From Tubulanus polymorphus (taxonomy: Eukaryota > Nemertea > Palaeonemertea > Tubulaniformes > Tubulanidae): 64,000 bases of DNA. The position numbers and the translations under genes are program-made. The notes under the pieces were generated by a model that worked only from the letters and a program-made list of their open reading frames with translations, had not been told where the DNA came from and ran no database searches. Location of the stretch: NCBI RefSeq assembly GCF_964204645.1, contig NC_134028.1, positions 12,133,001 to 12,197,000 of the forward strand, read 5' to 3'. Positions 35,844-56,137 of this stretch are shown piece after piece; position 1 is the stretch's first letter, and each line of letters begins with the position of its first letter.

Positions 35844-36049
35844 AGATCGGTGGTTACCGCAGCCTAAATTAGAAAGAAGATTGGACAAAACCTGAAACAG
35901 TATAAATCGACGAAGTAAATCTGCAAATATTAGAAAATAAAATTCCCATTAACATGTACACAAGCAAGTTATTACATTTGGTTGGTAATTTTGAAACTAC
36001 ATTTCAGATGCAGATCAAATGCGTTATAAATCACACATGACTGTTATAT

Positions 36050-36245
36050 GACATGTATGATTCATATTCAGGGCTGCATCACACGTGTGATTCAGATGTG
36101 TAAAAATGGTACAAAATCACATGTGTGATTTAGAAAATCACACGTGTGATGCAGCTTGAATGTGAATCACATGTGTGATTCACTTGTGTAAAAATGGGAC
36201 AAAATCACATGTGTGATTCACATACAGGGCTGTAACACACGTGTG
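36050..36245. repeat. Cluster of ACATGTGTGA palindromes, right
   Basis: About eight copies or half-copies of TCACAYGTGTGA. GTGTAAAAATGG occurs twice between them. Confidence 0.75.
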
Positions 36246-36570
36246 AAAACTATTTTTTTCGAACGAATGAAAGCAATTCTGTTCAATTGAAATACTTTAT
36301 ATTTTTGGTTCAAACAAAAAACTTTTAACAGTATACTTGTTCGAACAAAAAACTTGATGATCTGATAAGAAAAATTCGAAGAATGATTGTTCGAAAGAAA
36401 AACCGTTCATTAGGACAAAAAAAGTTTCTTCGAACGAACACAACTTCGCTCTAACGATTTTTTCAAATTGTTTCAATCGAACAGAATATTATTGGTTCGA
36501 AAGAAAAACTTTTTGTTCCAGTGAAAAGATTTTCGAGCGAAAGGTCTTTTGAACAAAAAAAAGATCTTTC
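36246..36570. repeat. TTCGAA-rich low-complexity stretch
   Basis: Runs of TTCGAACRAA and GTTCGAAAGAAAAAC variants in both orientations, likely a degenerate simple repeat. Confidence 0.55.
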
Positions 36571-36583
36571 TGGGGCTCCGCAG

Positions 36584-36931
36584 TAACTTAAAGCCAGACG
36601 TAGGTCGGCCTTGCGATGCGATCCTCGCGTTGCGTCGCAAGTGTGAGTGCAAGTCAGTTGCGACACGATTGTCAGCAACTGTGTGCGACTAGTTTCTGCC
36701 AGTCGCACAAGTGCGTAGGTCAGTTGCGACGGTCGTGTCGCGTCACAGAAAGTAGAACATGTGCGACTCATTGTGACTGGCGTCGCTGAGAGATGCAACC
36801 CGCTCCTGGCAGTCACGAGGGAGCGTAGGTAGATGAGTCGTTGCGACGCAATCATCGCTGGCAGTCGCAGTGAATGGCGTCGCAGTGAGTCACAAGCCGT
36901 CGCAAGGCTGACCTATGCCCGGCTTAAGTTA
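36584..36931. mobile_element. MITE with GTCGCAA-rich interior
   Basis: Starts TAACTTAAAGCC...AGGTCGGCCTTGCGA and ends with the inverse of TAACTTAAGCC...AGGTCAGCCTTGCGA. The interior has many GTCGCA/TGCGAC words in both orientations. No coding capacity. It is GC-richer than its surroundings. Confidence 0.7.
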
Positions 36932-36934
36932 TTA

Positions 36935-38377
36935 GGAATTAATGAAATACCAGTTTCATTTATGATGAAAAAACTCAAATGAATAGTCCCGCTTATAAAG
37001 CTGTCTGCTCGGACGAAATTTCAAATCTTCACTTTTGCCTATAAAATTGATAATTGTGATTGATCGTTGCAAGTCAGAACCAGTTAACATGCATTTTAAT
37101 AAATCTGATTCCTCCTTTACAGCTTTAACCTAGTAGAGGCTAATAGCCTTTGTAGGCCTATATATATGCGAAGGCCTAACATCCGGACAGATTGGTCGTA
37201 GGCCTATTTAATTACAACCCTCCTAAATATCGTATACACCTTATTTAACAGAGATATGTCTCTGGGGTATTGAATTCGTAAAATCAATTTCATTTTCGCA
37301 TTATGAAGAAAGAAATCTCTTGTACATCGTAGCAATGTTGCCAGAATTTTATTTCAAATTTTGTTTCGAAGTTCAATCCAATGAGTCCATTAATAAACAC
37401 AACAATTATACTGTGTTTGTTTTAGACAGTAAAGCACAGTGCCCGTAGGCCTAAAGCCTTAAGGTCGCATACAACTCGATAAACACTTCAAGCGACACAG
37501 CGAGCGATCTCCTTACTCCGAATGTCAAGTGTGAGTCATGCATACGGATAGGAGTGTGTTAAATACTTGTATTTATTAAATACCCTGTCCATTTGACAAG
37601 GATCGGTACGTACTGTAGGAAATATGGAGTTTAGATAAATGGTTGAAGCCCGTGGCCGAATAATATATAATATATTCTTTTAATTTGATACCTCGTCAAC
37701 ACAACAGCTTTTCTCCGCTACATCTCTTCGGCGTGTTTAGTTTAGGTCTACGACTCCCCGGTACTCTAATGATTATATTAGTAAATACACAGTAAATTTT
37801 GTATTGTAAAGAAAAATTGGTATTGTTAACTTAACTGCTTGAAGCCCGCGGCCAAATCACTGGTAGTAATAAATTCATTTGTACTTGATTTGGTTCTCAT
37901 GCCGAGGAGAAACTCGCAGTTGATCCCCGGAAGGACGATGTAGAGACACACGTCGATCTTTACGGCTCGACAGTGCTTTTAAAATCTAAAGTAGTAAATT
38001 TCCTGTGTATCGGTTATATGATTTGATGAGGAAAATGGGCTATTGTTAAAATTAGTTTTTAAAGACCGCAGCTTAATGTGCAATCTTTGGGTAATAAATT
38101 TGTTAATTTATGCTTGAATTGACAATCGACGTGACAAGAAACCTGCGGTAGATTTCGGAAAGACGACTTAGAAAAACATGTTGACTCTTTGAATGGGGCT
38201 CAATTTTCGATGTTTACCGCCTGACAGTGCTTTTGTAACGTTGATAGTTCAAAATACGCATGGAGTATTTGAAGATTGAAGTGAGCTGAATGATATCAGA
38301 CGGATTGTATCGGCAACAGCGGTAATGTAAAAAAGCCTATGAACTTTTGACAAAAAAAGTGTGGAAAAAATAATAAT
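36935..38377 (+). repeat. Dispersed repeat unit X, copy 1
   Basis: Aligns with 40977-41150, 53831-54440 and 56138-56700. Contains GTAGGCCTA and AGGCCTAAC words and no coding frame. It provides the empty site (TTAACATGCA near 37085) for the Gypsy insertion at 41151. Directly followed by unit Y copy B. Confidence 0.8.
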
Positions 38378-39199
38378 AAATATAGCTGCATAGCAGCGAT
38401 AACGGGTTTCTACCTAACTGGTTCATATATTGCAATGGGAAGCGTAAAAAAGATTTCATCGAGATTATTCAAATCCGTCCGTAATATAGGACTATATCCA
38501 AGAAGCGCAACCTGGGTCAACAATATGCTGGTTTATGTGGATCCAAAAGGGCTACCATGTAAAAGGTACTGATGTACCAAGTCTAATCAAATTGGCTTTG
38601 AGAATACCGAAGATATGGTCCCCCGGTGCCGGCAGTTGTATCAACTTGAACGTCGCGTGTCGAGGCAGGTGGTGGCCAGAAAAAGAAATATTTCCGGGAA
38701 AATTTTTTTGAAGACGCAAGGCATTGACTGATCAGTTGTGTTGTTTTCTTTCTTAATTTACATTTGATAATTGGCAGGTCATCTTGCTAGGAGTCCGTTT
38801 GTCAAAGCATCGAAGCAACACAGTCTAACTTGTTCATGTCTCAGATAATCCAAATTACACTTGCACAGCCCAACGTTTTTCAGTGTGTAAACTTTATCAT
38901 ACTCTGCATTGTAGGACATTGAGGAATTGAATTTTAGCCATCTGAGCCCTCGGCTTGATTCAAGCAAAAGACCTTAACTGACTTCACAGAATTTGATTAT
39001 GAGTAGGATTTTCTAAATTTCTGAAGAATACTTTCTCTGGTTTTAAGATCAATTCAATTTCAATCTTGAATACATAAAAATAAGTCAATTAAATTTTCAT
39101 TTTATTGAAAGAAATTCTACTGAACACAGATTTTGAACTGAATGACGTGTTGATTTATCCAGGCGAAAAAATTACAGCAAAATCAACTGATGATCAACG

Positions 39200-39365
39200 A
39201 GGTGAAGTTTTCATTTATCTTTGGATATTAATCTACCCCCTGATGATACAAGCTTTTTGGCTACACCTTTTGAAACATTAACACCTGATCTAATCGCACC
39301 AATTAGTCAGCCACAGTCAATTTTCATGCCATCTGACCTCTTTCCACCTGTAATTAAGCAATGAA
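39200..39365 (+). pseudogene. Conserved reading frame in unit Y, copy B (first segment)
   Basis: Matches the 52-codon frame of copy A (20429-20587). It keeps FLATPFETLTPDLIAPISQP through FPPVIK, then KQ and a stop. The first 15 codons are frameshifted relative to copy A and lack the ATG, so this copy is the broken one here. Confidence 0.4.
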
Positions 39366-39494
39366 ATGTAATAATTACTCGGTTATATAATATCATAGAG
39401 GAGTGAAAGAAAGTATAATAACTGATTACTTATCCAAATATTGTAAACATGGCAACTGAAAAAATGACAATTACATAAAACGTCAAGTACTTAC

Positions 39495-39713
39495 AGCATC
39501 TTAGACAGTTGCGCTAAAATTACGACAATGACGAAAAAGCTGGATTTGGAACGTACACTTGCACACTGTGGTTTAAATTTATTTCTACCAGCTGCAAGAG
39601 TCGGCAAAGGAATTGAAGACCGTAGTAACCAGTTAATTCCACGAATAATAGCTGGAAAGAAAGTAATTGAAATGAATAGTCGTACACATAAGTGTAAACA
39701 AGCCCCTTACTAA
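39495..39713 (+). CDS. Conserved reading frame in unit Y, copy B (second segment)
   Basis: Preceded by an acceptor-like AGTACTTACAG near 39485-39495. The open frame contains ATG 39528 and runs to TAA 39711-39713. The peptide includes LERTLAHCGLNLFLPAARVG then RSNQLIPRIIAGKKV and ends CKQAPY. Compared with copy A, indels keep the frame and many changes are conservative, which suggests past coding constraint. Protein not recognised. Confidence 0.4.
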   Translation, partial: SILDSCAKITTMTKKLDLERTLAHCGLNLFLPAARVGKGIEDRSNQLIPRIIAGKKVIEMNSRTHKCKQAPY

Positions 39714-40030
39714 CAACTTAGGCTTTCCACTGTCTCTATTCACTACATTTAGGGCCTATTCTAGGTGTATCCCCCCAAAAAAGCTAGGTAAAGTAGCTAG
39801 CCAACAATGATCATTGCTTCACCGAGTACTCATTTGCTACCATATGTACTAATATTATACAGAAATCATGTAAAACATTCCCTGGTTAACGGATTCTCAC
39901 CTTAAATTACGTAAAATCTGCTGTCGTTGTCATCGATCTGAGTTGTCAAGTGAACGCGGAAGTAAAATTCTGTATGAAAATTCCTACCATTTCTGTCCAT
40001 ATTACGTTGAATCGAGCCAGAAATCTTCAG

Positions 40031-40550
40031 GAAATGTAGCCAACGGAAATTGATTTACGAATAGAATTAACCAATTGACTCATTTTAAGGATCATGGTTT
40101 CGTGAAATTCATCATAAGGTCCTAAAACTCGCGATAAATTCAAGCCGAAAATGATTTCAACCATCCGCCATGTTTCATTCATAAGACACTTATTACGCAC
40201 CGGCTGTAGTTATCGTTCATGGGAAATGACGGAAACGGATTTACGGTTGACTTTGAAGCTCAAGGTCGTGCGGTAAATTTTAGGCTTTTCGGGGTGCACT
40301 TTTATCAATGGATGACGATTCTTTGCGTTATTCTTATCGCTGTTTAGACCCGGTAATTATGCGGGATTAATTCATAGAATACATTAATAGATTACTATAC
40401 GCAAATTCGAAATGGTCAGGCACTATTTCTGACAGAATTTAAAATTACGTTATAAGCTGTTGGTAGTCAAATCTGAGAAGAGTTACATTTTATGAAAAAA
40501 TTTTGGCTGGAAAGTGGACCATAAATAATAATAATCAACAGGAATACAAG
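40031..40550. other. Unassigned DNA
   Basis: No gene or repeat recognised between unit Y copy B and the hairpin at 40551. Confidence 0.3.
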
Positions 40551-40579
40551 AGGGTTTCTGCGAAAGCAGCAGAAACCCT
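40551..40579. repeat. Hairpin preceding unit-Y-type head
   Basis: AGGGTTTCTGC pairs with the inverse (GCAGAAACCCT) over a short loop, followed at once by AATAAATATAGCTGC. Related hairpins lie at 56734-56763 and 56791-56820. Confidence 0.6.
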
Positions 40580-40582
40580 AAT

Positions 40583-40970
40583 AAATATAGCTGCCAAGCA
40601 GCGATAACGGGTTTTCTGCACAGTCTTAGAATCCTGTTCAATGGTTAACACAGTTTTATAAGAGGTAGATTGACAAACAGTCAATTACATTACATCTACT
40701 TGAAACCATGGACAACTGGACCAGATGGTCCTATTTGACTCTGGAAAATCGACTGTTAGGCCATAATTACTGTTTATGGATTTCGACAAAGCATTTGATA
40801 AGGTACAACATCAGGCTATTAGGAAACAGTATCGATGATAGGTCGCTCAAATGGCTCAGCAGTTATCTCTGAATGAAAACATGTTGCCGAAATCAACGGA
40901 ACGCCTCATCTTGGAATAAGTATCCTAAGTCGTCTTCTCTTTTATGTCCTGATAAATGACAATAAACTCA
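40583..40970 (+). pseudogene. LINE reverse-transcriptase fragment, second copy
   Basis: Same head and same RT piece as 33858-34340 (FDKAFDKVQHQ, then SSYL), with additional deletions. Frame broken. Confidence 0.6.
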
Positions 40971-40976
40971 TTATAT

Positions 40977-41150
40977 TACAGAATTAATGAAATACCAGTT
41001 TCATTGATGATGAAAAAACTCAAACGAAAAGTCTGGCTTATAAAGCTGTCTGCTCAGATGAAATTTACAAAAAAAATTCATTTTTGCCAATAAAATTGAT
41101 AATTGTGATTGATCGTTGAAAGTCAGAACCAGCTAATCACTAATTAACAT
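40977..41150 (+). repeat. Unit X copy 2, first part
   Basis: Matches 36935-37087. Ends in ACAT, the target duplication of the Gypsy insertion, and resumes at 53831. Confidence 0.8.
41147..41150. repeat. 4-bp target-site duplication (integrase-first Gypsy), left
   Basis: ACAT, repeated at 53831-53834; a single copy is present at the empty paralogous site near 37087. Confidence 0.75.
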
Positions 41151-41424
41151 TGTTATGTACTGCAGATTTAGATATACGTACACATATATAACGCTTTTAA
41201 ACGTAACGCTTGTTAACCAGATAAGAGATTACTACATATAACACTGTGTTCTGAATACTACATATAATATTGAATTGTATTACCGTGGTTCATAAGTTCC
41301 ATTTATATTGAGTTGTATATAAGTTGTGTACATGTGAAATAAATCAGAGCTGTAATAAACTGCCTAAACTCCACACACGTCGATGTCTTAGCGTTGGTAA
41401 CTGGTTCTCTGTCCGTGCCGTAAT
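41151..41424 (+). repeat. 5' LTR, integrase-first Gypsy
   Basis: Starts TGTTATGTACTGCAG. Nearly identical to 53556-53830 over about 270 bases. AATAAA near 41339. Confidence 0.85.
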
Positions 41425-41429
41425 AGAAA

Positions 41430-41446
41430 TGGGGGCTCGTCCAGGA
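41430..41446 (+). other. Primer-binding site, tRNA-Pro type
   Basis: TGGGGGCTCGTCCAGGA, a few bases after the 5' LTR, closely resembles the complement of the tRNA-Pro 3' end used by several retroelements. Confidence 0.7.
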
Positions 41447-41691
41447 AGGAAAAAAATCATTTGGAAGAAACCGTACACGGAATGATGGTGCAGACCGATG
41501 GTTATTGTGGTTCGTTTTTCTATGCGTAGCTGTTTGTTTTACGTGGCGTTTTGCGGAAAATTTCATAATTTTTGTATCAGTACTCCGGAGGCAGATTCGT
41601 CGTTGTTTATAAGGTACTGTACCTGTTTTATTACCTTTACTGGTGTTATATAAAATTCTGTCCTTCGTTAAAATCGAAAATAGTGTGAATT

Positions 41692-41869
41692 ATGTCTCAA
41701 AAAGTCGTTGACTTTCAAACCTCTCCCACGTGGGAGTTTTTTAATTCGTTATTGAAGTCGGACTTAATTGTTCTAGCAGCCAATTATGAAATCTCAATTA
41801 AAACTTAAATACGAAAATCCGAAATCAAGGAATCAGTTGCTCAGCATATAATTCAACAGGGTGTATTAA
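41692..41869 (+). pseudogene. gag, 5' part, cut by Kolobok insertion
   Basis: ATG at 41692 opens SQKVVDFQTSPTWEFFNSLL. A TAA stop lies at 41806-41808, but the frame resumes and runs into the Kolobok TTAA site. Removing the transposon and one TTAA puts this frame in register with 49702 onward. Confidence 0.6.
41866..41869. repeat. TTAA target duplication, Kolobok left
   Basis: TTAA abuts AGGGGTCATGAAGAGGTTT; the matching TTAA is at 49702-49705. Confidence 0.85.
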
Positions 41870-44800
41870 AGGGGTCATGAAGAGGTTTAGGAAAAAATTC
41901 TAAATCTAATTTTTTTTGTATAAAATGATTACTATATGCGTCTATAGTAGTTTCATGGAAAAAAAAAATTAAATATCATTATCCAATCCCGAGAAAAGCC
42001 CGTAGCAACGGCCCCAGCAACAGGACGCTCGCGATTGCGCGTCGATATTGATGACGTCATTCTGAGAAGTCCTCTCCACAGGCAAACCCGGAAGCGTTCT
42101 ACTACTACGTTTATTCACCGAAGATTCCGCAAATTAACGCTAATTTTTCAACGATTTTGACAATGCCCCGCCGTTGTGTAGCCATGCATTGCTCTCACGA
42201 AGGCAGTTCGAAGTTTGAGTGGCCAAAAGACCAAGCGAGAGATAGGATATGGACGGCTTTCGTGCGCACGAAGAGGAAAAAAACTTTCAGCCCACTCCAA
42301 CCAGCCAACTTTGCTACAAGCACTTTTCTGACGAGGCTTTTTCTAACATGATGGCACATGAACTCGGATACGCAAAATCGTAAGCAGTTATTAGGCATAA
42401 TTCAAATACATTTTTCATTTATCTGACTGAATAGCCTAAGTCTTAGTCAGTTCTAAAAATTCGCTTGCCGAGCTCGCATGTCTTCGTATCCAGTTCAACT
42501 TGTTTTGCACCAAGAAGCCCACAGACCAGCAGTATATGTCTATAATATGACCTGACAGCACCAGTGATAATAATTAGCCAACTACTAGTTTCAATTTGAT
42601 GTTTAATTCTTATCCAAAACAAAAAATGGTCAATGGTTGGGCCAGGTGTAGGAGGCTGCTGGTTCAATAGGCCTATATAGTCAGAGATGATGTAGAGCCC
42701 TAGGTCCAATTACTGAAAGAGGTCATAATGTATTAATTGACAATTATTTTATCTTGAAGACTTCGTCTAAAGTCTGATGCCGTTCCCACAATTCATTTGC
42801 TGCAAGTCGAGTCTCCGCAGTCAGAACCCTCAGAAACATTTGTGTCTCCAACACCAAATATGTGCGCTAGTGAACCCAGGTCAGCCTATGCCAAGCGAGA
42901 GAGGCAACGGTTAGTGGATAATGCTGTCGCAGATACTTGTGATGATAGTCAAGTAGATTTAGACATCTCTGGAGTTGAGCCACTTTCTGAAGTGCACCAT
43001 AAAGGTAATTAATGGCTAAATCTTTTTAAGAGTTCATAGACACACCAAACTTGTTTTTCACTTATCATTTTGCAAAGTGACCAATCATATTATACATTTT
43101 GATTACTTTCTATTCTTTTAGCTTGCCAAACTTTGAAATACAAGCAAAAGTGCCTCACCTGTCAAAATAAAGTTCGACCACAGCTCATATCAGTAGGGAC
43201 TCAAGTTTCTTCTCCACAGTCCAAAAAGCGAAGGAGACTAGATACAGATGAGCAAGACGATTTTGGATCAGCAAGTGACAGCTCTGATACAGATACAGAG
43301 AGTGATAAAAGTTACATCCCAAGCGATGAAAATGAGGAGGAGGAGGAAAATGGTGTATTTCACGAAATGAAGTAGGTACACTCTACAAATATGATATAAT
43401 ACATTTTTTTTGAGGTTTAACAATTGATTTTGACTTTTTCCTTTGATTTACTCACAGAAGCGATGAAGATTTGCCTTATCAAAAGAGAAAGAAACACATA
43501 GTATTTGAATCCTTTCTGCTTCAACTTTTTGTAGTGTGTATCTTGTGTGGAGGAGAGAATGAGTGTTATAAACAGGTAGGTGGAGAAGGTTGCATTTTTT
43601 ATCATTTCAACTGAAAGAAAAACAGCTACCAGTACATGTTTTCTTTTTCCAGACTAAAGGTACTTTCTTACGAGTTCGTACCAAGTGTACTAATTGCGGC
43701 TTAACGAATGAATGGCAGAATCAACCACTGATCAAACAAATTCCAGTACTTAACATCTTACTGAGTGCGAGCATTCTGTTTACTGGCTCCAGCCCAGAAA
43801 AGGCACTTCGTATATTTCGGTACGCTATGAAAAAATGCCGATTAAACGAAAATATTACTCAATTATACGTATTTCATTAATCTATTGTATCTTTTCAGGT
43901 TTATAAATATACAGTGCCAAACTGTTAGGACGTTTTTTAACCATCAAGCTCGATTTCTTCATAAAGCAGTTAATGAAACATGGACAAAATCGAAAGCAAA
44001 AATATTAGAAAACTTGAAAGGCAGTCAGCTGATACTAGGAGGGGATGCTCGATGTGACTCCATGGGACACTCCGCAAAGTTCTCTAGTTTTAGCCTCATG
44101 GAGCTGAACTTGAATAAATTAATATCTGTAAACTTAGTTCAAGTAAGTTTTTTTTCACTCGCACAATTCATGCTGTTATTAAATCAGAATGAAATTTTTA
44201 TTCTCCTTCAGAGCAATGAAACCGGCAATAGTTACAATATGGAACTTGAGGGATTGAAACGATGTTGAAAGGACTTGGCTATTATAACCGATCGTCACCA
44301 CCAAGTTGCCAAATGGATTAGGGAATCCTAGAATATTCCCCATTATTTTGATTGCTGGCATGTAGTGAAAGGTGAATTTTTAGCAAATAGTCTCTAAGCC
44401 GTAAACTATGTACTTATCAAGTGACTTTGATGAAAGTTGTAAATTTGAAAACTTGTTATCTATTTTCAGGTTTGGCTAAGAAACTGGACGCCATCTCCAA
44501 ATCATTTTCTATTGTGAAATTGTGGATGAAGAGCATTACATATCATCTCTACTGGCTCTACTCAATCATCATCGCCTGGCGATAAAGAAGAAATCAGGAG
44601 GAAATGGGCTTCAACAGTTGAACATATTCAAAATATCCACCACAACTGTTGCCACGGTCCATTAGAAAAACCGAAGAAATGGTTGAGACCAGGTACACTT
44701 TATAACTAAAAAGAAAAATTTGATTATAATCTCTTTCGAAATGGTAATTAACTCTTTATATACAGGAAGTGAAGCTTGCGAGAAAGTTGTAAACCTGTTG

Positions 44801-45246
44801 ACCAAAAAGCTATTCGTTGGTGATGTGACAAACATGTCATCTCTTGGACAGACTAGCGGTGTAGAGTGTTACCATAGTGTGGTTAATCATTTTGCTCCAA
44901 AGATGTTAAAATTCTCATACCAAGGAATGTGCAGTAGGTATGTTATCTTCTAGCCAATTTGTATCCATTGGTGCCAGTACTTATATACATTTTTGAAATA
45001 CATGTATTGTGAAGATTATAATATCGGTATATTGCAGGATCTATCTTGCAGCTCTTCATTATAATGAGAATGCAGGGCGGCCTCAAGCTATGAATAAGTC
45101 AGGATGCGGCCAATACAATATTGTCTTTCCTAAATACAAGAAGGGTGGATATTCTGTAAGGAAGGTTCTAGTAAATGCATCATACAGTGAGTAGTTATCC
45201 AGTAGTTATTGTGAACAAAATAGGCTAATACATGTATATACATTGT

Positions 45247-45250
45247 TTAA
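45247..45250. repeat. TTAA target duplication, piggyBac left
   Basis: TTAA before CCCTTTGAACC; the partner is at 47828-47831. Confidence 0.85.
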
Positions 45251-47827
45251 CCCTTTGAACCCTGACGTTTGATATTACCTTTTACTATATACCCGGCTTC
45301 GGGGGCAAAAATTCCCTATATTCAAATAGCTGTAAAATTTTAACTAATAAAGATATCTACATGAAATAAAGTTTATTAGACATTACAGGAAGTAAGCTTC
45401 TCAAAAAACATATCAAACACTCACCCTACTCCCAGTATCTTTGAAGTGAATGCCACTTTCGGAAGCAGTTTTCAGCTTCAGTGCCGATACAGAGAAAAAC
45501 GTTACATAACATACACCTATATACAGTTTTGCGTCTTTTAGGTAGATTTTCATCCCCATTCCTTTTTGCACGCTTATATCGTTCATCACAAACAACACAA
45601 CGATTGTTAGAAGTAGCCTCTGCTCCCCTTTCAGGAAAATGTTGTCCAGCATTCAGTCTTTGTAGATCGTGTTCATGCTCACGACGTTGACCGAGAACAG
45701 GTTCGTCCCTATTTGCAACATGATCACTCACAAGATCATGACAGAGTTCATCAACAAAATCATGGAAGCAATAGGATGCTACTGGTGATGGATTGGTCTT
45801 TCTTTTGAGTATGTATGCATTATAAATGGCCCACATCATAAATTTGACCATAAGTCTACGCGGCCATCTGTAATGACGTCTGCACTTGACCATCTTTGTA
45901 TGTTGGTCATTGAGATCAACTCCTCCCATGTGCATATTATATTTTTTTACTATACTAGGAGCAGGGACTTGAACCCTGCCTCCTTCTGCAGCTATGTATC
46001 TCCTTACTTCAGTGTCAGGAGATTTTACATGAGCAGTAGAGAGGAAGTGGATTGGCTTTTTGTCCATCCACACAAGAGCGGCTACCTTTCCGTTGAAACG
46101 GCGCTTATATTCACCACGTGCTAAGTCGTTCGCTGTTTTGATACATACAGGAAATCTCTTTCTGTTTGTCATTGTAGTTCCAACAATACAAGTGTTCATA
46201 TTGTCCAGAAGATGTTCGCTAAGGAAAACACTACTGTAAAAACGGTCCACGTATAGGCAGTAACCATGGTTCGCAACGGGTTTGCAAAGACGTCGAACTA
46301 AATTCCCGGTTGCGCCGACAACTTCCACATCCTCAGGATCATTTTGTACACCTGTATATACTTCCGCGTTTATAATATATCCATTGTCACTGTCACACAA
46401 TAAAAAAGTTTTTATACCCCATTTTACGGGCTTGTCTTTGAGGTATTGTTTTATTGAGAGTCGATTTTTCGTCGGGATGATGCCCTCGTCTAAGGATACA
46501 TTTTCACCAGGCACATAAAAATTCTTGAGTTGAATTCTTTGTTGAGGGTGGGGTCTTCCTCATTTACACAGTGTAGAAAAGTCCATATTGCTAGGAATCG
46601 ATCCCTGCTCATAACTTTTTTGAAGCCCGGGGTTGATAAAAGCCAACTTTTTTGTCTCCAATAATCAGAATAGCGATTTTTATAAATCAGGCACTCCATG
46701 GTTATTCGCAGGCCAAAGAATGCTTTTAGTTCATTTATGGTCACACTACGCCAGGTTTTAGCATGATAAAATGTAGGCCTGGCCGCTTTTATGCGTCTGG
46801 CTTGACGATTTGTTTCCGCTTTGAGAAGGCGCCACAATTCATTGTCCCATACTAAATCTAAATGTTCAGCTAGTGAACTTTCAGCAGTGATGGTGTCAGG
46901 GATATTTTTCACACCAGGGAAAAGGAATTTCATTATGAGCAGCAACATTTTCTATCCAATTATCAATTATTGGTTGACGATTACCAATATGGCCACTAGC
47001 TCGACGACGCCTGCGGGCACGGCCCCCACGCGCCCCTCGATTTCCAGCTCTACCTATCTGACCACCACGTTGATTGCCACACTGACCTCTAAATGCTCGA
47101 CCACGTCCACGCTGCTGTTGGTTGATAGGAGGTACACGTAGGCCTACAGGTTTACTGTCAGAGTCACTTGACACGTGGTAATTTATCGGAGATCGTGACC
47201 GAACTCGAGCGCCGACTCCCCTTCCTAAAGGACGGCTCCTTGGATGAATATGGGAAGGAGTAGATGAATGTCGTTGTTTGTTAGAATTAGACAGTTCATC
47301 ATCACTGCTGCTGACATCATGAGTAGGTCTGTTCACAGCTCTACGTCCAGTACTTGTACTCGGTACAACATTGTCCATAATATTGTTCGTATGAGAAGCC
47401 GCAGTGGTAGGGAAAGGGTCAATGTCCGGTCCATTTCTATCACTACCTGATTCATAATTATTGTCATTTTGTGATGAATTATCAACTAACATCAACGTAC
47501 CTTCTTCAAAACTCTCATCTTCAGTCTCAAAATCACTTTCGTGTTCGTAATCTTCCTGGTCTAAATCCTCATCATCATCGTCTATCACAAGTTGCAAAGC
47601 TTGACTCACTGATAATTGTTTTTTATCCATTATTTTCACCAAAAACTTGAAAAAATTCCGGAATTTTCTTGAAACATTCGGGAAACACCTTTGCTGACGT
47701 CATTATGGAATTCCCCGCTGAAAAACGGCAGTAGTTTCGAGTCCCACATAATGGGCCGGTATTTCGGCCTTTCGGTATATAGTAAAAGGTAAATGGGCCG
47801 GTATTCCGGCCTTTCGGTCTCAAAGGG
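45251..47827 (-). mobile_element. piggyBac transposon in a Kolobok intron
   Basis: 2577 bp with TTAA duplications, terminal repeats CCCTTTGA (inverse at the right end) and subterminal inverted copies of TTACCTTTTACTATATA (near 45275 and 47776). Right end holds two GGGCCGGTATTYCGGCCTTTC repeats. It lies wholly between a transposase donor at 45187 and acceptor at 48193, so the host exons are uninterrupted. Confidence 0.9.
45426..47630 (-). pseudogene. piggyBac transposase (two frame breaks)
   Basis: ATG at 47630. The N-terminal ~240 residues are acidic then RG-rich (DDDDEDLDQEDYEHESD; RGGRARRRRR). A frame change near 46935 leads to the domain 46948-46490 (TFYHAKTWRS, LKAFFGLRI, MSRDRFLAI). A second break with missing residues near 46510 leads to 46514-45426. 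That part holds the three catalytic aspartates, in VSLDEG, LYVDRFYSS and GGVDLNDQ, and a C-terminal cysteine-rich zinc domain (CVVCDERY, YRCMLCNVFLC). It would cut and paste the element at TTAA. Confidence 0.9.
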
Positions 47828-47831
47828 TTAA
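47828..47831. repeat. TTAA target duplication, piggyBac right
   Basis: TTAA after TCTCAAAGGG. Confidence 0.85.
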
Positions 47832-48474
47832 ATGAATTTCCTTTTTCTATTTTTGTTTCACAGGCATCTGAGAAGTATCTTGTTTCTTTTGCCGTGTTTT
47901 ATTTCGATTAATACAGTACAACTATCTAACCATTGCTTTCTATAATATTGAAGGGTGCAATATTATAGTTAATTTTACAACATACCTGTAACTCAATCAT
48001 ACTCTATATCTATACTCTATATCTGTCAGCTTTTCTTCTGCTAAATGTGTGCACTTATTTATCTGTCCTGCTTCTTGGGTTTGATGTGATTAAAATATAT
48101 TTCATAATTATTTTCCATTCACACGCATTATTTCAGCATATTTCATATTGATGTAATTCTTCTTTAAATCCCGAGTACATGTATCTATTGTAGAGTATGT
48201 CGACCAATGCTTTGATAAGCTCATAACATGTGTCGAAAGAAATGAGGATCTACAAGCTGTTTCTAGGATAGAACCGGCACCGCTATGTGAATCATATGAG
48301 AGGCCCAACAAACATGAAGCAGTGGTTGGATAACTTAGATTTTAGTTTGTAAAAAAATAAATCCAAGACTTGTATCTTATCTTTGTATAGAAATCATTAA
48401 AATATATTTCTAAAAAAATTTTAATATATGAATTTTAAGCAGATCTTTACAATTATTTTTGGCACGTCTAGGTT

Positions 48475-48895
48475 TTATTTCTTGAGTTTAGGCCATTGAT
48501 GTCCCTTAAATTTAAAGTCCTCTTCTAAGCCAGGTGGTGGAAAATGTGCCCTTATACAAGACACAACACAAGAAGGTAACACCACCCTACAATCCTTGCC
48601 GAGATAGTTCCAGCACCGCCGTACAAACTGTCTATAAGCAATGTGTCGATATTTAGCATGAGCAGGTCCCTCAAAGCCACTGCCTTTATACTGTTGCTTG
48701 TATTGGGACCAGGCACACTGCAAGTTCCAAGGATCCAAACAATCCGAATTCAAACCGGGATGATCGGTCATACACGTGAATTCCATTTTTTGGATGACTG
48801 TTGCTTCGTCTAATTTGGAGACTACTTCTGGTATTTCCTGGCAACAAACACATTCACGGGCGAACCCCAATGGTTGAAAATGTCCGCATGTGCAC
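48475..48895 (-). CDS. Kolobok accessory gene, exon 2: P2X7-ballast-like cysteine-rich domain
   Basis: The acceptor ACTAACTATGTTACAG at 48896 opens the exon, which ends in TAA 48477-48475; an AATAAA overlaps the stop. The joined product has about 217 residues. Motifs: CTCGHF, ECVCCQEIPEV, FTCMTDHPG, CLDPWNLQCAW, KYRHIAYRQFVRRCWNYLGK, VVLPSCVVSCIRAHFP and a final FKGHQWP. This is the layout of the zinc-binding, cysteine-rich ballast in the cytoplasmic tail of P2X7 receptors. No transmembrane or channel part is present. No stop or frameshift, in contrast to the transposase. It converges on the transposase gene, whose stop is 141 bp away. Role in transposition unknown. Confidence 0.8.
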
Positions 48896-49270
48896 CTGTA
48901 ACATAGTTAGTGAATGTTATGTATTGTAATATCAGTAAGATGAACTAGATACCAAAATATCTGAACATCCTACCCAATGCTAGGCTAAAATTTAAAATTG
49001 TAGTCTAAAAAGTTAGTGTTTCGGGAATACAGAAGTAATATATAATAAAAGTAATAATAATGAATGAGGGTTTTGGCAGTAGCGGATAGATAGATAGATA
49101 AATAAATAGAATAAATTTTGATTTGATTGGATTGAATTTTACTACTTTCGTTTCATTCACCGTATTTGTCGATATCAATCGGCACACATGGTATTAGAAA
49201 CATCTGAGACAAACTTTGATCGAAATTATAATTTGTATGAAACAACTCGATGATAATTTCGTCTACTAAC
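48896..49270 (-). other. Intron of the Kolobok accessory gene
   Basis: 375 bp between a GTTAGT donor and a TTACAG acceptor on minus. Contains a GATA tetranucleotide run near 49086-49100 and no coding frame of note. Confidence 0.6.
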
Positions 49271-49503
49271 CAATCTTTCAAGCGATCAACCTCGGTCCGC
49301 CAAGCATCTTCCCAAACACTAGCCGAATAAACCTCGTCGTCCGACGCGTCGGGTTCAAAATCAAACGGATTTATGACCACTATCTCATCGTTAGAATTGT
49401 TTCCTTCTTCAATTTCGGAGATTCGGCTGGAATCTGATGACACCGAGTCGCTACGTTCACTTTCATCGCTGTCACTATACGTTTCTGATATACTCTCCGC
49501 CAT
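49271..49503 (-). CDS. Kolobok accessory gene, exon 1: acidic N-terminus
   Basis: ATG at 49503-49501, about 180 bp inside the right terminal repeat. 77 codons plus two bases, ending at GATTG followed by GTTAGT. The two leftover bases TG plus the first G of exon 2 give a tryptophan codon, so the product reads RLKDW then CTCGHF, as in stand-alone ballast-type proteins. The N-terminus is serine/acid-rich (SDSDESERSDSVSSDSS), followed by PFDFEP. The donor was chosen by phase and by this family match. Confidence 0.7.
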
Positions 49504-49701
49504 GATGTTTTGGTTCGGGTTCTCAGAATGACGTCACACTTCCGGGTTTGGAATGAATCGGCACGGGCCGATCAAAAGTCTAATTTTACAGTTATTCCAT
49601 AATGTTAAATTTATTTTTTGATCAACTAAACCAATACATAGGTTATATTTGATGATAAAAATTACTTAAGGCCATATCTCAAAAACCTCTTCATGACCCC
49701 T

Positions 49702-51250
49702 TTAAGTGAATCGCCTATTATTGAAAGTTCAAAAAGTTCTTCTTTAGAATTGCGTCGGTTGGAGTTAGAATATCACAAGCGGGAATGTGGAAGACAACAC
49801 GAGATTGCGCTGAAGGAGATGGAACTTCGTATGAAGTTGATGGAATTCCACGATAGTGGTTTACGTCGAACACGCCCTCAGCAGTTTGATGTCACCAAAC
49901 ATATACGACTGGTACTAAAATTCAATGAAGCGGAACCAGATAAGTATTGTTCCCTTTTCGAAAAGATTGCTGTGAACCTGGAGTGGCCTAAGCAATTTTG
50001 GTCACTACTACTGGTTCAGATTGTATTGGTGGGAAAAGCGCAGGAAGCGTACTCTGCGCTTTCGGCCGAGGAAAGTCAGGACTATGACAAGGTTAAATTT
50101 GCTGTATTGAAGTCGTATGAATTGGTACCTGAAGCTTATCGTCAGAAATTTCGAGATCGTAGAAAATATTCAACAGAAACATTTGTAGAATTTGCAAGGG
50201 GCAAACAAGATTTGTTCGATAAGTAATGTGATTCTATGTTAGTGCATAAAGATTTTGAGAAATTAAGACAAATTGTTCTAATTGAAGAGTTCAAAAATTG
50301 TTTAGGGATTGAGATTAGGACATATTTAGATGAAAAGAAAATAACTGATTTGAGTGAAGCTGCAATTTTGTCAGATGATTACGCGTTAACACATAGGATT
50401 ACATTAGGTAAATCAGATACATGTAGTAACAGTAATAGTACCAACTTTTCTATGAATCGTAAAATAGGTCCAAACAGCAAATTGGAATCAAGTCCTAAGA
50501 CTAATACTACTACGGTAGTTTGCAGTTATTGCAAAAAGGCGGGACACTTAATTTCTGAGTGTTTCAAATTACAAAGGAAAAGATCTCAATCGGTACAAAA
50601 GGTTCAGCTTACTTCTACGGTGGACACAAAGAGTTTGTTACAAAATTTCAAATTTGAGCAAAAACCATTTGAACCGTTTATTTCTGATGGCTATGTTTCT
50701 CTGCCAGGGTGTTCAGTTGAAAATTTGAATATAAAAGTTTTGTGGGATACAGGAGCTTCACAGACTCTTATGCTAACTGGTACGTTACCTTTGTCTGAAA
50801 AAACATATGTAGGGCGCAGTGATTTATTGAAAGGCGTTAGCGGAGAGATATTGGAGACTCCTTTACATAAGATTTACTTAAACACATCTGAAGTACAGGG
50901 TGAAGTAGAAGTTGGTATCAAGTCAGTACTACCAGTACCTGGAATTCATTTGTTATTGGGCAATGATTTAGCTGGAGGTAATATTCATTATGATCGAACT
51001 GTTTCTGACTCTCCCACTTTGGATTCTAAAGTGGAAGAGTTAGAAATTCCGGGTATTTTTCCTGCTTTCGCGGTAACACGTGCTATGGCTGCAAAAAAAT
51101 TAAGAGATGCATTGTCATCTTTTCAGCCCTCTGATAATGTATTGTCTTCTGATTCTTCAATTTCTGACGATTGTCAGCACAATTTAGATGATACTTTTTT
51201 GCAAACAAATTTTGAGTCTGTGGGAGAACAGTCCGAGCAGTCCAGAATTT
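49702..51250 (+). pseudogene. gag and protease of integrase-first Gypsy
   Basis: Frame 49693-50226 is helical gag (LELRRLELEYHKRECGRQHE, then AYSALSAEESQDYDKV and VPEAYRQKFR, a SCAN-like capsid segment). TAA at 50224 interrupts it, and 50236-51252 continues. That part has a CCHC knuckle (CSYCKKAGHLISEC, about 50521-50562) and an aspartic protease with VLWDTGASQT (near 50740). A C-terminal linker follows. The first part of gag lies before the Kolobok insertion. Confidence 0.8.
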
Positions 51251-51342
51251 AGTAGGGCACATTTGATTAAATTACAACAGCAGGATTCCAAAATTTTTAA
51301 ACTATGTAGTACTGCTTCATCTTCAGTTGAAGATTTTTAAAT

Positions 51343-52307
51343 GATAACCCTGTGGGTTATTTTATGCACGGTGGAGTACTGTTGAGGAAATGGCATCCAC
51401 CGGATGTCCCTGCTGATAATGAGTGGAACGTGGTGAATCAGATAGTGGTTCCCCCTGGGTATCGCAAGCATATTTTGCATCTGGCCACTGACAATTTAAT
51501 TGGTGGTCATTTGGGCGTAAAAAAACTTATAACAAGATTCTTGAGAATTTCTTTTGGCCAGGATTATATAAAGATGTATCAAAGTTCTGTGGTAATTGTC
51601 ATGCCTGTCAAATTAGTGGTAAACCCAATCAAACGATCCTGCCGGCTCCGTTAATTCCGGTGCCAGCATTTTCTCAACCGTTCTCAGAGATTTTGATCGA
51701 CTGTGTTGGTCCTTTGCCTAAAACTAGAGCAGGAAATGAATATCTTTTAACCATTATGTGTAAATCTACACGATTTCCTGAGGCAATTCCACTTCGTAAT
51801 ATTACGGCTCCAGTTATATGTAAAAACTTGGTTAAGTTCTTTACTACATTTGGTCTTCCTTCATCTATTCAATCAGATCAAGGTTCCAATTTCATGTCGG
51901 GTATATTTCAACAAGTTATGTTCCAATTAAACATTAAACAATGTTACTCGACGGCGTATCATCCACAGAGCCAAGGTGCTTTGGAGCGTTTTCATCAAAC
52001 ATTGAAATCCATGTTAAGTGTGTTCTGTAGTGAAAATGATCGTGATTGGGATGAAGGAGTACCATTGTTACTATTTTCTGTCCGTGAATCTGTTCAGGAT
52101 TCATTAGGATTTAGTCCTTTTGAATTGGTTTTTGGCCATAAAGTACGAGGTCCTTTACTGTTGATGAAAGAACAGTGGTTGGCGGACTCAATTAAAATTC
52201 CTTTATTGAAGTATGTAACTGAGTTTAGGAATAGAATGTGTAATACGTGGAAATGTGCTCGTGAGCACTTGACTGAATCACAAAGTAAGATGAAAACGTG
52301 TAGCTGA
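51343..52307 (+). pseudogene. Integrase of Gmr1-like Gypsy, located before RT
   Basis: The H2C2 region is near 51475-51620 (HLATDNLIGGHLGVKKLI, then a frame change). The core frame 51660-52307 shows FSEILIDCVGP, SIQSDQGSNFMSG and HPQSQGALERFHQTL, giving the D, D and E positions. The tail has GFSPFELVFGH. The C-terminal domain is cut short at a deletion near 52295 that fuses it to RT sequence. Its place ahead of RT is unusual for Gypsy. Confidence 0.85.
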
Positions 52308-53461
52308 ACCCAGTGATAGTGACTGGAGTTCTCCGTGTCTATTAATTCCTAAGCCAGATTTTCGTAAAGTCAATTCAGTGACTAAGACAGATTGTCATCC
52401 AATACCCAGGATAGATGATCTTGTCGATCAGATTGGTAAATCCAAGTATATTACTAAAATCGATTTAACCAAGGGTTATTGGCAAGTTCCTTTGACAAAC
52501 CGCGCTAAGAAGATAGCTGCATTTGTTACACCAAATGGTTTTATTTCAATATCGAAAGATGGCATTTGGTTTGAAAAATTCAGCGGCCACTTTCCAAAGG
52601 CTCATGAATAAGGTCGTGAACGGTCTAGTTTGCGTGATTGTATATATTGACGATCTTATCATTTTTTCAGATACTTGGGAGTCACATCTTCAGCAACTGC
52701 ATTCTCTATTTGAGAGATTGACTGAGGCAAACCTTTAGGTAAAAGTTTACTTAACTTAAGTTTACTTAACAGTAAACTTGCCTATAAGTGATTTCGGTAA
52801 AGCCATAGTAATCTATCAGGGTCAGGTAAAGCCTGTGGATGCGAAAATTAAATCAATATTAGATTTACCGTCTCCTAATGATCGGAAATCTCTTCTTCGA
52901 TTTTTGGGTATGGCCGGTTTCTATAGAAAGTTCTCTAGAAATTTTTCTGATCTAACTTGCTGTTTGACCCAGTTGCTGAGGAAGGGTGTCCCGTTTGTTT
53001 GGAATGAAGATTGTGAATTAGCATTTCGAAATGTCAAGTCTTTTCTTTGTAGTAGTCCTGTTTTGTCTGCTCCTAACTTTGAAAAACAATTCAAATTGAC
53101 TGTTGATGCTAGTGATGTCGCTACAGGGGCTGTGCTATCTCAAATTGATGATTCTAATATCGATCATCCATTAGCGTATTTTTCGAAGAAACTGAATAAC
53201 AGTCAGAAGAACTATTCTACTATAGAGAAAGAATGTTTGGCATTGGTTTTTGCTCTAGAACATTTTGAGGTGTATTATAGTATGCAATTATATCCTGTTC
53301 TTGTATTAACAGATCATAATCCGTTGAAATTTCTGAATTCAATGAAGAATAAGAATAAACGAATTATGAGATGGGCGTTATTGCTGCAAGAGTATAATTT
53401 ACAGATTGAGCATATCCGTGGAAGTAAAAACATAATTGCTGATGCTCTATCACGAGTTTGA
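52308..53461 (+). pseudogene. Reverse transcriptase and RNase H of Gmr1-like Gypsy
   Basis: RT begins near 52310 (EPSDSDWSSPCLLIPKPDF), lacks its first part, and continues with TKIDLTKGYWQVPL, FGLKNSAATFQRLM and VIVYIDDLIIFSD (active site near 52643-52654). Frame changes lie near 52570 and 52738-52780. RNase H and the tether (LRFLGMAGFYRKF, LTVDASDVATGAVL, VLTDHNPLKFL, NIIADALSRV) end at a TGA at 53459. The 3' LTR starts 95 bp later, with no integrase between. Confidence 0.85.
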
Positions 53462-53544
53462 TGTATATAAGTCATTGTGTTCTAGATATTGTAAGCTAAA
53501 TCGTGTATATTATATATTCTGGTATAATTCCATAAAAACTCTTT

Positions 53545-53555
53545 AAGGAGGGAAG
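53545..53555 (+). other. Polypurine tract of integrase-first Gypsy
   Basis: AAGGAGGGAAG immediately before the TGTTATG of the 3' LTR. Confidence 0.7.
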
Positions 53556-53830
53556 TGTTATGTACTGCAGATTTAGATATACGTACACATATATAACGCT
53601 TTTAAACGTAACGCTTGTTAACCAGATAAGAGATTACTACATATAATACTGTGTTCTGAATACTACATATAATATTGAATAGTATTACCGTGGTTCATAA
53701 GTTCCATTTATATTGAGTTGTATATAAGTTGTGTACATGTGAAATAAATCAGTACTGTAATAAACTGCCTACACTCCACACACGTCGATGTCATAGCGTT
53801 GGTTACTGTTTCTCTGTCCGTGCCGTAACA
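53556..53830 (+). repeat. 3' LTR, integrase-first Gypsy
   Basis: TGTTATGTACTG...GCCGTAACA, nearly identical to the 5' LTR, followed by the ACAT duplication at 53831-53834. Confidence 0.85.
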
Positions 53831-54440
53831 ACATGCATTTTAATAAATCTGATTCCTCCTTTACAGTGAACTTAGCTTTAACCTAGTAGAGGCTAGTAGC
53901 CTATGTAGGCCTATGTATATGCGTAGGCCTAACATCCCGACAGATTGGTCGTAGGCCTATTGAATTACAACCCTCCTAAACATTGTAAATTTTGTTTTGA
54001 AGTCCAATCTAATGAGTCCGTTAATAAACGCAACAATTAGACTGTGTTTGTTTGAGACAGTAAAGCTAAGTACCGGAAGGCCTAAAGTCTTAAGGACGCG
54101 TACAACTCGATAAACACTTCAAGCAACACAGCGAACGATCTCCTTTCCCCCACGGAATGTCAAGTGCGAGTCCAGCATATGGATAGGAGTGTGTTATATC
54201 CTTGTATTTAGTAAATACCTTGCGCATTTGATGAAGTTCGGTATGTACTATTGGAAATATAGAGTATTGATAAATGGTTGAAGCCTGCGGCCGAATTAAG
54301 TAATATCTTCTTTTATTTTGATACCTCGTCGACACAACAGCTTTTCTCCGCTATATCTCTTCGGCGTGTTTAGTTTAGGCCTACGACTCCCCGGTACTCT
54401 AATGATTAATCTTAGTAAATACATGGTTAATTTGGTAAAG
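53831..54440 (+). repeat. Unit X copy 2, second part
   Basis: Aligns with about 37085-37830. Continues at 56138 after an unrelated 1.7-kb stretch. Confidence 0.75.
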
Positions 54441-54936
54441 AAACAACAGGCCCATGGGCCTTGAAGCATTGGTAGATTATACTGTGGTATTAAGTGGTTA
54501 TAATGTTTTACATCTGCCGGCAAATCTTCTATGAGGATGTTGATTGGGAGGACCACAGACTTAAAGGTCTATTTGTCTAGTACGATTTTATTCCTGAAAA
54601 TGAATTTATTTTCTGCCTAGCTATTTAGCCTAGGCTATTTGTACTGTTAAACCTCATTAATGCGATTCTGTTAAAAAGACAAAACTAGTTTATTCTGATG
54701 TTTTCCATCATGTCCCAGCCAAGATATTTATATCAATCAAGATTTGGATACAAAAACCCATTTTTACGCATGAACTGTTAGGCCCCACTGAATAATGAAA
54801 ACAGAAACAGAACGATTTTTCTGAATGCAATTGCAAGACCCTCCGATCTTAGAGCTCCAAGCTCTGATGCATGTACGCATGCAAAACGTCGCAGAGAGCG
54901 ATGCCGGCGTTGGTGTCACTGAGGCCAGCTGGTGAT
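54441..54936. other. Insert in unit X copy 2, left part
   Basis: Absent from unit X copy 1. No gene recognised. Borders the SINE. Confidence 0.3.
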
Positions 54937-55153
54937 TGTTTGTTTGTCTTTTTGTTTGTTTGGCTTTACGTACATCGTTTGGATCTTGGTTTCCCAAGAC
55001 TATTCCTATTGGATTGTTCATTTAATCTCACGATGGTACGACCTTTGAAGTGTTGCCCACACACTGTTCGCAGCCAGCAGGACTCAAACCCACTCAGCAT
55101 TGATAGTGGATTCAACATCATCACGCCTTATCTCACTGAGCTACCGAGGCCGC
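54937..55153 (-). mobile_element. tRNA-derived SINE
   Basis: On minus the head reads GCGGCCTCGG then box A TAGCTCAGTGAG (55143-55132) and box B GGTTTGAGTCC (55090-55080), the internal RNA polymerase III promoter of a tRNA. A non-tRNA body follows, ending in a CAAACAAACA-type tail near 54937-54962. Target duplications were not found. No protein. Confidence 0.7.
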
Positions 55154-56137
55154 TCGATTCAATTCCAAAAAACCACAGCAGCGGCAAATAACCATCGCAA
55201 TATTGCAATTTACGACAATCAACGCGTAAATTCAATCACTGTTGTTTAACGCATAGAAAAGATAATAAAAGGTATTTTTTCCCGGCGCGCATTACAAAGC
55301 GAATCTCTGCCGAGGGCGTCAGAGGGTGCTACCGCCTTATGAGTGCGCAGCAGGCAGGTAGGGCGTCCTAAAGTGAAAACTTATATTAGAATATAGCCGA
55401 ATCGAATTTTACAATGTCAGTCAACTGATTGATGATACAACATGGTTGTTCTCGGTGTACTTAACAATGATATTTTCCTCCAATTAACAACTCTGGTAAA
55501 ATTGAATAAAATGATCTATCTTTATTGGTGATATCGTATCATGGTGGTAGCCTACCGTTTACCGTTTGATGTTTCGTGTCATCATGAAATTGTTTTAACT
55601 TTAGTAAAGGCGTTCCCGTACGATCACATACGGGTTTCAGTCACGAGTAGGCTGCCGTTCCACTGCTCTAGAAATACGTATTCTGACGCTGAGAATTAAT
55701 CCCAAATAATCCCATGGATACTGATAGTTGGAATAACAGTGATATCCAAACACTGTGATTTTTCTAAACCGGAGGTACATAATTTTATGTTTTTCTATTC
55801 AGAAGAGGCTGTTCCCCATTCTTAACTGCCAATGTCAATGCGGACATATCGCTACGCGATTGTTTAACCCACTCTCATCAACCAGATAATGAACGAGAAA
55901 AATGCGATCGAATAACTTTTTGGACCATTAAATCAGAAATCTGGCGACGCTATGTTGTGGGGAATAATTGAAACATTTTTTTGTAATTTTCAGCTGTTTC
56001 TAATGTTTTACGTGAACGGAGTGACAATTTGAAGTTTCTATGAAAATGAGAACAGTCGGCGCTATTTTTTCGTACTACTATTTTCGATCCATTTTACTAG
56101 CATTGGCATGACGTCATAGATGTCAACCAATGCTAAA
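55154..56137. other. Insert in unit X copy 2, right part
   Basis: Absent from unit X copy 1. No gene, repeat or RNA recognised apart from the neighbouring SINE. Confidence 0.3.

Follow-up and report, generated by a model that had tools for sequence, protein, structure and literature searches.

The locus examined here raises the question of whether a gene found inside a transposon belongs to that transposon or came to it from the host. It lies in a stretch of 64,000 nucleotides (the window) on contig C4 of the 267.8-Mb Tubulanus polymorphus genome. A Kolobok DNA transposon in the window carries, opposite to its transposase, a two-exon gene for a cysteine-rich domain otherwise known as the cytoplasmic ballast of P2X7. 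The initial annotation had offered three options for this gene: an accessory transposition factor, a DNA- or zinc-binding regulator, or a captured host gene. The analysis makes it very likely that the locus is a decayed Kolobok copy of the Kol0 type and that the gene on the minus strand is KolX, the usual second gene of such elements, which would encode an accessory protein. The features are collected in Table 1.

Table 1. Features of the Kolobok copy and its KolX gene (positions within the window)
Feature	Position	Strand	Basis
Kolobok DNA transposon, very likely Kol0-type, including TTAA duplications	41866..49705	+	19-bp perfect TIR adjoining TTAA, both ends
Left TTAA and TIR, AGGGGTCATGAAGAGGTTT	41866..41888	+	TIR comparison
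Transposase exon with THAP zinc finger, internal frame change	42163..42381	+	homology to sister THAP exons
Transposase exon X3	43662..43820	+	sister-element homology
Transposase exon (D1), likely first catalytic D (GGDARCDSMGHSA)	43897..44145	+	sister homology, motif reading
Transposase exon (D2), likely second D (TDRH) and DCWH motif; TGA 44266, TAG 44329	44203..44373	+	
Transposase exon (Z), frame change after HLYW	44457..44692	+	sister-element homology
Transposase exon (E), likely catalytic E (GQTSGVECYH)	44771..44942	+	sister-element homology
Transposase exon (P), HYNENAGRPQA...FPKYKKGGYSVRKV	45036..45186	+	sister-element homology
Nested piggyBac, TTAA-CCC...GGG-TTAA	45251..47827	-	DDE_Tnp_1_7 E 3.5e-46; TTAA ends
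KolX exon 2, cysteine-rich P2X7 ballast-type domain	48475..48895	-	splice reconstruction, Pfam, profile
KolX intron, 375 bp, GT-AG (GTTAGT...ACAG)	48896..49270	-	
KolX exon 1, acidic Ser-rich N terminus, PFDFEP motif	49271..49503	-	splice reconstruction
KolX N-terminal motif	49351-49368	-	within KolX exon 1
Right TIR and TTAA	49683..49705	-	TIR comparison

The gene had been placed wholly inside a TTAA-flanked Kolobok, and its coordinates proved exact. Each end of the element consists of TTAA and AGGGGTCATGAAGAGGTTT, and the two TIRs agree at 19/19 positions, a match reached in none of 20 mononucleotide shuffles. The 4-bp TTAA target duplication typical of the Kolobok superfamily is present on both sides; without it, the element covers 41870-49701. 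The window element has AG...CT termini, as do those sister families for which termini could be read, in agreement with the 5'-RR...YY-3' termini given for Koloboks in PMC9587614. When the Kolobok flanks are joined with one TTAA, the gag-like frame of the host element stays open. The genome search at up to 3 mismatches found no empty paralogous insertion site for the window Kolobok.

The region 41151-53828 is a three-layer nest, in which the Kolobok sits at a TTAA within the gag-like frame of an LTR-type retroelement and itself contains a piggyBac, at another TTAA. A 273-bp repeat pair outside the Kolobok (41151-41423 and 53556-53828, 265/273 identical) looks like the LTRs of the surrounding retrotransposon-like element. 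The nest is flanked by a second set of direct repeats (37121-37775 and 53874-54408, pieces 85-95% identical), which is probably another repeat family. The nested piggyBac, whose transposase frames are fragmented in the ORF listing, is located 3' of the last recognised Kolobok transposase exon. Subtracting it leaves about 5.25 kb for the Kolobok, and complete sister elements have a similar size (L034, L035 and L042, 5.02-5.09 kb; L037, 5.26 kb). The idea that the ballast gene is piggyBac cargo was rejected, because the gene is not enclosed by the piggyBac ends and is also present in complete sister elements of 5.0-5.3 kb.

Homology across the sister elements orders the plus-strand transposase exons as THAP, X3, D1, D2, Z, E and P; the exon homology search did not recognise the final sister-element exon, T, in the window copy. 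GGDARCDS, TDRH, DCWH and GQTSGVE occur in this order, as in a DDD/E transposase with C/DxxH between the second D and the E, the catalytic residues being assigned from motif reading. Pfam THAP scored above the cut-off in three sister elements and below it in the window piece (E 0.035). For the window pieces 44391-44585, 44687-44953 and 44997-45194, Pfam returned nothing above cut-off. The window transposase has four lesions, namely the two stop codons of exon D2 and one frame change each in exons THAP and Z.

KolX starts with the ATG at 49503 and encodes 217 amino acids plus the stop. The spliced protein is identical to NCBI LOC141903823 of Tubulanus polymorphus (100% identity over 100%). It scored 29.3 bits against Pfam P2RX7_C (cut-off 23.5), while exon 2 alone reached 19.7 bits, under the cut-off. 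As a single sequence, the window KolX gave a weak PDB match to 6u9v (E 1.9). When a profile of 58 KolX homologs was compared with the PDB, the matches at E <=1 were exclusively P2X7 chains, with a best E of 1.3e-8 (6u9v), and 58/58 homologs scanned matched P2RX7_C. The Pfam score of the spliced protein and the homolog-profile match bear out the P2X7-ballast identity first read from the letters of the gene. NCBIfam assigned no family to three KolX proteins, and a scan of viral contigs with the KolX alignment gave 89 stretches that fit a pattern, none of them a relative.

The gene had also been described as intact beside a broken transposase. Its reading frame is indeed open, but two strongly conserved residues are replaced. 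The position of rat P2X7 C482 is Phe in the window KolX and Cys in 42/42 other rows, leaving six of the seven conserved cysteines, and at the position of W556 it carries Arg in place of a Trp found in 98% of 62 rows. His at F591 occurs also in P0003 (pipefish) and P0011, and Met at I507 occurs also in Tubulanus families A and C; neither was counted as damage. Because one of the seven cysteines and a near-invariant Trp are lost, the window KolX is open but probably decaying. It is a KolX by descent, and a working protein is not claimed. All four transposase lesions, which had been noted at the outset, were confirmed, as was the open KolX frame, but the contrast between the two genes weighs little, given these replacements and a probability of 0.21 (not significant) that all four lesions hit the transposase under uniform decay.

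Homologs of the window KolX numbered 191. Among the 120 that were listed, many are metagenome or assembly proteins; those with a named source come from fish, hemichordates, cnidarians, a crinoid, an annelid and nemerteans. Residue conservation was read from 62 KolX-type proteins, with the window copy and rat P2X7 excluded. The positions of rat C477, C479, C482, C498, C499, C506 and C572 are Cys in 98-100% of the covering rows (41 to 62). R546, H547, Y550, R551 and R578 are conserved at 97-100%, and among them R546, H547 and R578 are near-invariant (97-98% of the 62 rows). A passage of PMC7016195 reports H547 as missing from invertebrates, or confined there to deuterostomes; in contrast, 97% of the 62 rows have His here, nemerteans and cnidarians included. 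An N-terminal motif, P-[YF]-x-[FY]-[ED]-P, was found in 21/23 full-length KolX-type proteins from several phyla, the two exceptions reading PHMFEP and GYLFEP. It does not occur in the rat P2X7 piece 470-594.

The linkage of KolX to transposase was counted across the genome with three queries for KolX, two for transposase exon D1 and one for exon Z; the counts are lower bounds. After merging, at least 72 KolX loci and at least 71 transposase loci were obtained. KolX was found within 12 kb of 53 of the 71 transposase loci, and in 53/53 linked loci it lies downstream of the transposase on the opposite strand. In 500 random placements within each contig's occupied span, the mean number of linked loci was 2.0 and the maximum was 8. 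With a single KolX query and only exon D1 for the transposase, 44/63 were linked. No KolX was detected within 12 kb of the other 18 transposase loci, and for 19 of the 72 KolX loci the search showed neither exon D1 nor exon Z of a transposase at that range. The linkage to a transposon, which had been proposed from this single locus, is supported by these counts. Because the arrangement is fixed in all 53 linked loci, KolX is very likely an ordinary component of the transposon, its second gene, and not a captured host gene.

This arrangement was followed at the DNA level in 41 KolX loci (the window, L002-L021 and L031-L050). A family TIR with TTAA stands on the KolX 5' side in 25/41, with 1 mismatch in L039 and 2 in L021. 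Transposase exons are present in 32/41, and the best match of each exon is always antisense to KolX. No transposase exon was found in the inspected DNA of L002, L007, L011, L040, L043, L044, L045, L047 and L050; for L007 and L011, the genome position search placed one about 4 kb off. When TIRs were sought with no family as a guide, 16/21 long loci yielded no pair. Five TIR families in the genome have KolX at the same place and in the same orientation. The element forms a single mobile unit whose two convergent genes are both conserved, and this layout is repeated in several families.

In family A (L003-L013), all 11 copies end at the same TTAA on the right. Over 2.1-2.7 kb, L003, L005, L006, L008, L009, L010, L012 and L013 share 99.1-99.8% identity with L004, and their flanks differ from those of L004. 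L007 and L011 are 99.5-99.6% identical to L004 over 1.17 kb and have their first flanking bases in common. In 10/11 copies, the KolX frame is stop-free in the matched part.

Two further observations concern loci in which only one gene was seen. Three related transposase copies (C8:2503497, C8:3062369 and C8:3425870) are 60-61% identical to family C, and three KolX queries found no KolX within 150 kb of them. At L047 (C7:3961187-3971100), the KolX exons are open, and no transposase exon or family TIR was found in 9.9 kb; this KolX is a relic or a solo gene. An ORF beside it presumably corresponds to the AIR-synthetase part of GART, which it resembles.

Copies with the TIR of the window element were searched for at up to 2 mismatches, and 100 occurrences were found (48 forward, 52 reverse). 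Adjacent facing TIRs form 30 elements, 27 shorter than 3 kb and 3 longer. The short copies, 22 of which measure 0.9-1.5 kb (for example C4:12771485-12772744), are a non-autonomous family. Another TIR end of this type lies at C4:12197482, 482 bases past the window. A KolX or transposase match is enclosed by only 1/30 pairs, that of the window itself, and neither was found in the other 29, including the long C1:16284520-16291220 and C10:6227800-6232793. Absence of the gene from other copies had been named as grounds against its being part of the element. The 29 pairs do lack KolX, but they lack the transposase as well and resemble non-autonomous elements. A second gene-bearing copy of the window family, in which no TIR was detected, lies at C4:19103866-19105594; its two genes are convergent, with KolX 97% identical over 39 amino acids and the transposase 94% identical over 52 amino acids, with a stop.

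Selection on KolX was estimated for exon 2 as dN/dS (Nei-Gojobori, own script). KolX is clearly under purifying selection between subfamilies of one group, B, in which dN/dS was 0.108 (L014-L015), 0.177 (L014-L020) and 0.202 (L015-L020), and 0.099 (L014-L021), 0.112 (L020-L021) and 0.087 (L015-L021) at a dS of 1.4-1.7, near saturation. Near-identical B pairs gave 0.27 (L014-L016, 2 changes) and 0.80 (L014-L017, 4 changes), and A-type KolX (L004, L038, L039) gave 0.39, 0.53 and 0.33; dS was uncomputable in pairs involving L002 or the window. For the transposase, exon Z showed 0 nonsynonymous and 5 synonymous changes in 52 codons (L014-L015), dN/dS was 0.23 in exon P (L014-L021), and the tail exon T, compared between subfamilies, gave 0.33, 0.39 and 0.78, with a value of 0.81 for the pair L014-L017. 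KolX copies decay after insertion.

In a midpoint-rooted tree of 26 KolX and P2X7 rows, with rat P2X7 on a very long branch, the window KolX grouped with a goby KolX (95/91) within a fish-hemichordate group (94/88), and the five other Tubulanus KolX families stood apart from it. Among the goby and other fish KolX that grouped with the window KolX are P0002 and P0003. Such host-incongruent grouping is usual for transposons, but at 59% identity it does not prove a recent transfer.

Among the three options, an accessory transposition factor fits best, and a zinc-binding regulator is also possible. KolX would be a protein required for the movement or persistence of the element, and it may help transposition or control it. 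Its seven cysteines could hold a zinc-bound core, as in P2X7, where they bind zinc. Together with the conserved Arg-His...Arg residues, which contact GDP in rat P2X7, the cysteine domain may form a ligand- or partner-binding module, with the Arg-His/Arg set making an anion- or nucleotide-binding face, and the acidic tail with its PYxFEP-type motif might serve in docking to the transposase or to some host factor. The R546, H547 and R578 set occurs in KolX-type proteins of nemerteans, cnidarians, an annelid, a crinoid, hemichordates and fish. A stronger version, in which KolX is an essential nucleotide-sensing zinc protein and P2X7 inherited its guanine-nucleotide pocket (Arg546, His547, Arg578) from a transposon regulator, is speculative and on balance doubtful.

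A helper and a regulator of transposition would look alike in sequence. KolX as a repressor or anti-silencing factor, in place of a helper in the transposition reaction, is a possible though somewhat unlikely reading; it would suit the acidic, Ser-rich N terminus and the suggestion in PMC7016195 that zebrafish nanor is a transcription regulator, but nothing specific speaks either way. From the abundance of short same-TIR derivatives, in which neither gene was found, it can be suggested only that the two proteins are able to act in trans. It is very unlikely that the host has domesticated the window KolX, keeping its frame while the transposase decays. An open frame with an NCBI gene model beside a four-lesion transposase would be expected from such a history, but the uniform-decay probability given above and the Phe and Arg replacements argue against it.

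The remaining alternative, that this one Kolobok captured a ballast-type (nanor-like) host gene or overlies such a gene by coincidence, is extremely improbable. Stand-alone ballast proteins are described from many animals in PMC7016195, where the ballast is treated as an ancient animal module, and the 19 KolX loci without a nearby exon D1 or Z (e.g. C7:3969187) could be read in the same direction. However, three of these 19 (L006, L012, L039) bear a family-A end and other transposase exons, the 53 linked loci all agree, and KolX recurs at one place and orientation in five TIR families. The suggestion of a captured host gene is therefore unsupported, and KolX as the second gene of the element is retained.

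The central proposal for this locus is confirmed but not new. The pairing of KolX with a transposase in Kol0 Koloboks was published in 2022 (Kojima & Bao, PMC9587614), so that the linkage, offered as an inference of the initial annotation, was correct and already in print. The same article matches KolX with the P2X7 ballast through seven conserved cysteines, regards Nanor as a likely domesticated KolX, and reports a related C-terminal piece in a few piggyBac families. It also proposes that P2X7 arose in vertebrates by fusion of a KolX-type gene with a P2X4-like gene, so that the suggested route of the domain to a receptor gene is likewise a published proposal. The word stem 'transpos' is absent from the main text of PMC7016195. 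Among the papers listed, titles and abstract openings pointed to no other paper on the KolX-ballast link, and PMC9319628 mentions Kolobok and P2X7 once each. New here are the linkage count, the purifying selection between subfamilies, the conserved N-terminal motif and the evidence of decay in the window copy. The proposed derivation of the P2X7 tail from a gene of a transposon makes an appealing example of domestication, and the Tubulanus polymorphus genome gives the transposon side a quantitative footing, with dozens of elements, a recently mobile family of 99% identical copies, the convergent layout of all 53 linked loci and selection on KolX. The families with open KolX could be used to probe the role of KolX, and hence that of the ballast before its fusion to a receptor.

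Among known systems, the closest likeness is to the KolX of Kol0 Koloboks (Kolobok-1_XT in PMC9587614), a second protein of a TTAA Kolobok with a ballast-type cysteine domain. KolX stands beside the transposase here too, and the Kol0 placement, made by likeness to the published description, rests on KolX, the termini and the motifs. The Kol0 hosts named in one section of that article are vertebrates, annelids, cnidarians and sponges, whereas the present host is a palaeonemertean and a piggyBac interrupts the decayed copy in the window. KolobokP, KolobokD, KolobokE and KolobokH, also described there, are Koloboks that carry a further enzyme or an accessory domain, but their partners are nucleases or a helicase, unlike the KolX and short TIRs of the window element. 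KolobokP has terminal direct repeats of 450 or 660 bp and a His-Me nuclease; this identity was rejected, as no long direct-repeat pair lies at the element ends among the 20 largest of 48 repeat families in 36000-56000. Zebrafish Nanor is similar by its description in PMC7016195, a stand-alone ballast protein with a short N terminus. The rat P2X7 ballast (6u9v) has the seven cysteines in common with the KolX consensus and agrees with it at R546, H547, Y550, R551, W556, P570, R578, F581, P582, G590 and F591. P2X7 differs in having a channel part, in R574 of the GDP pocket, which is not common to KolX, and in K583, which aligns with a variable KolX site, whereas KolX has its own N terminus bearing the PYxFEP-type motif.
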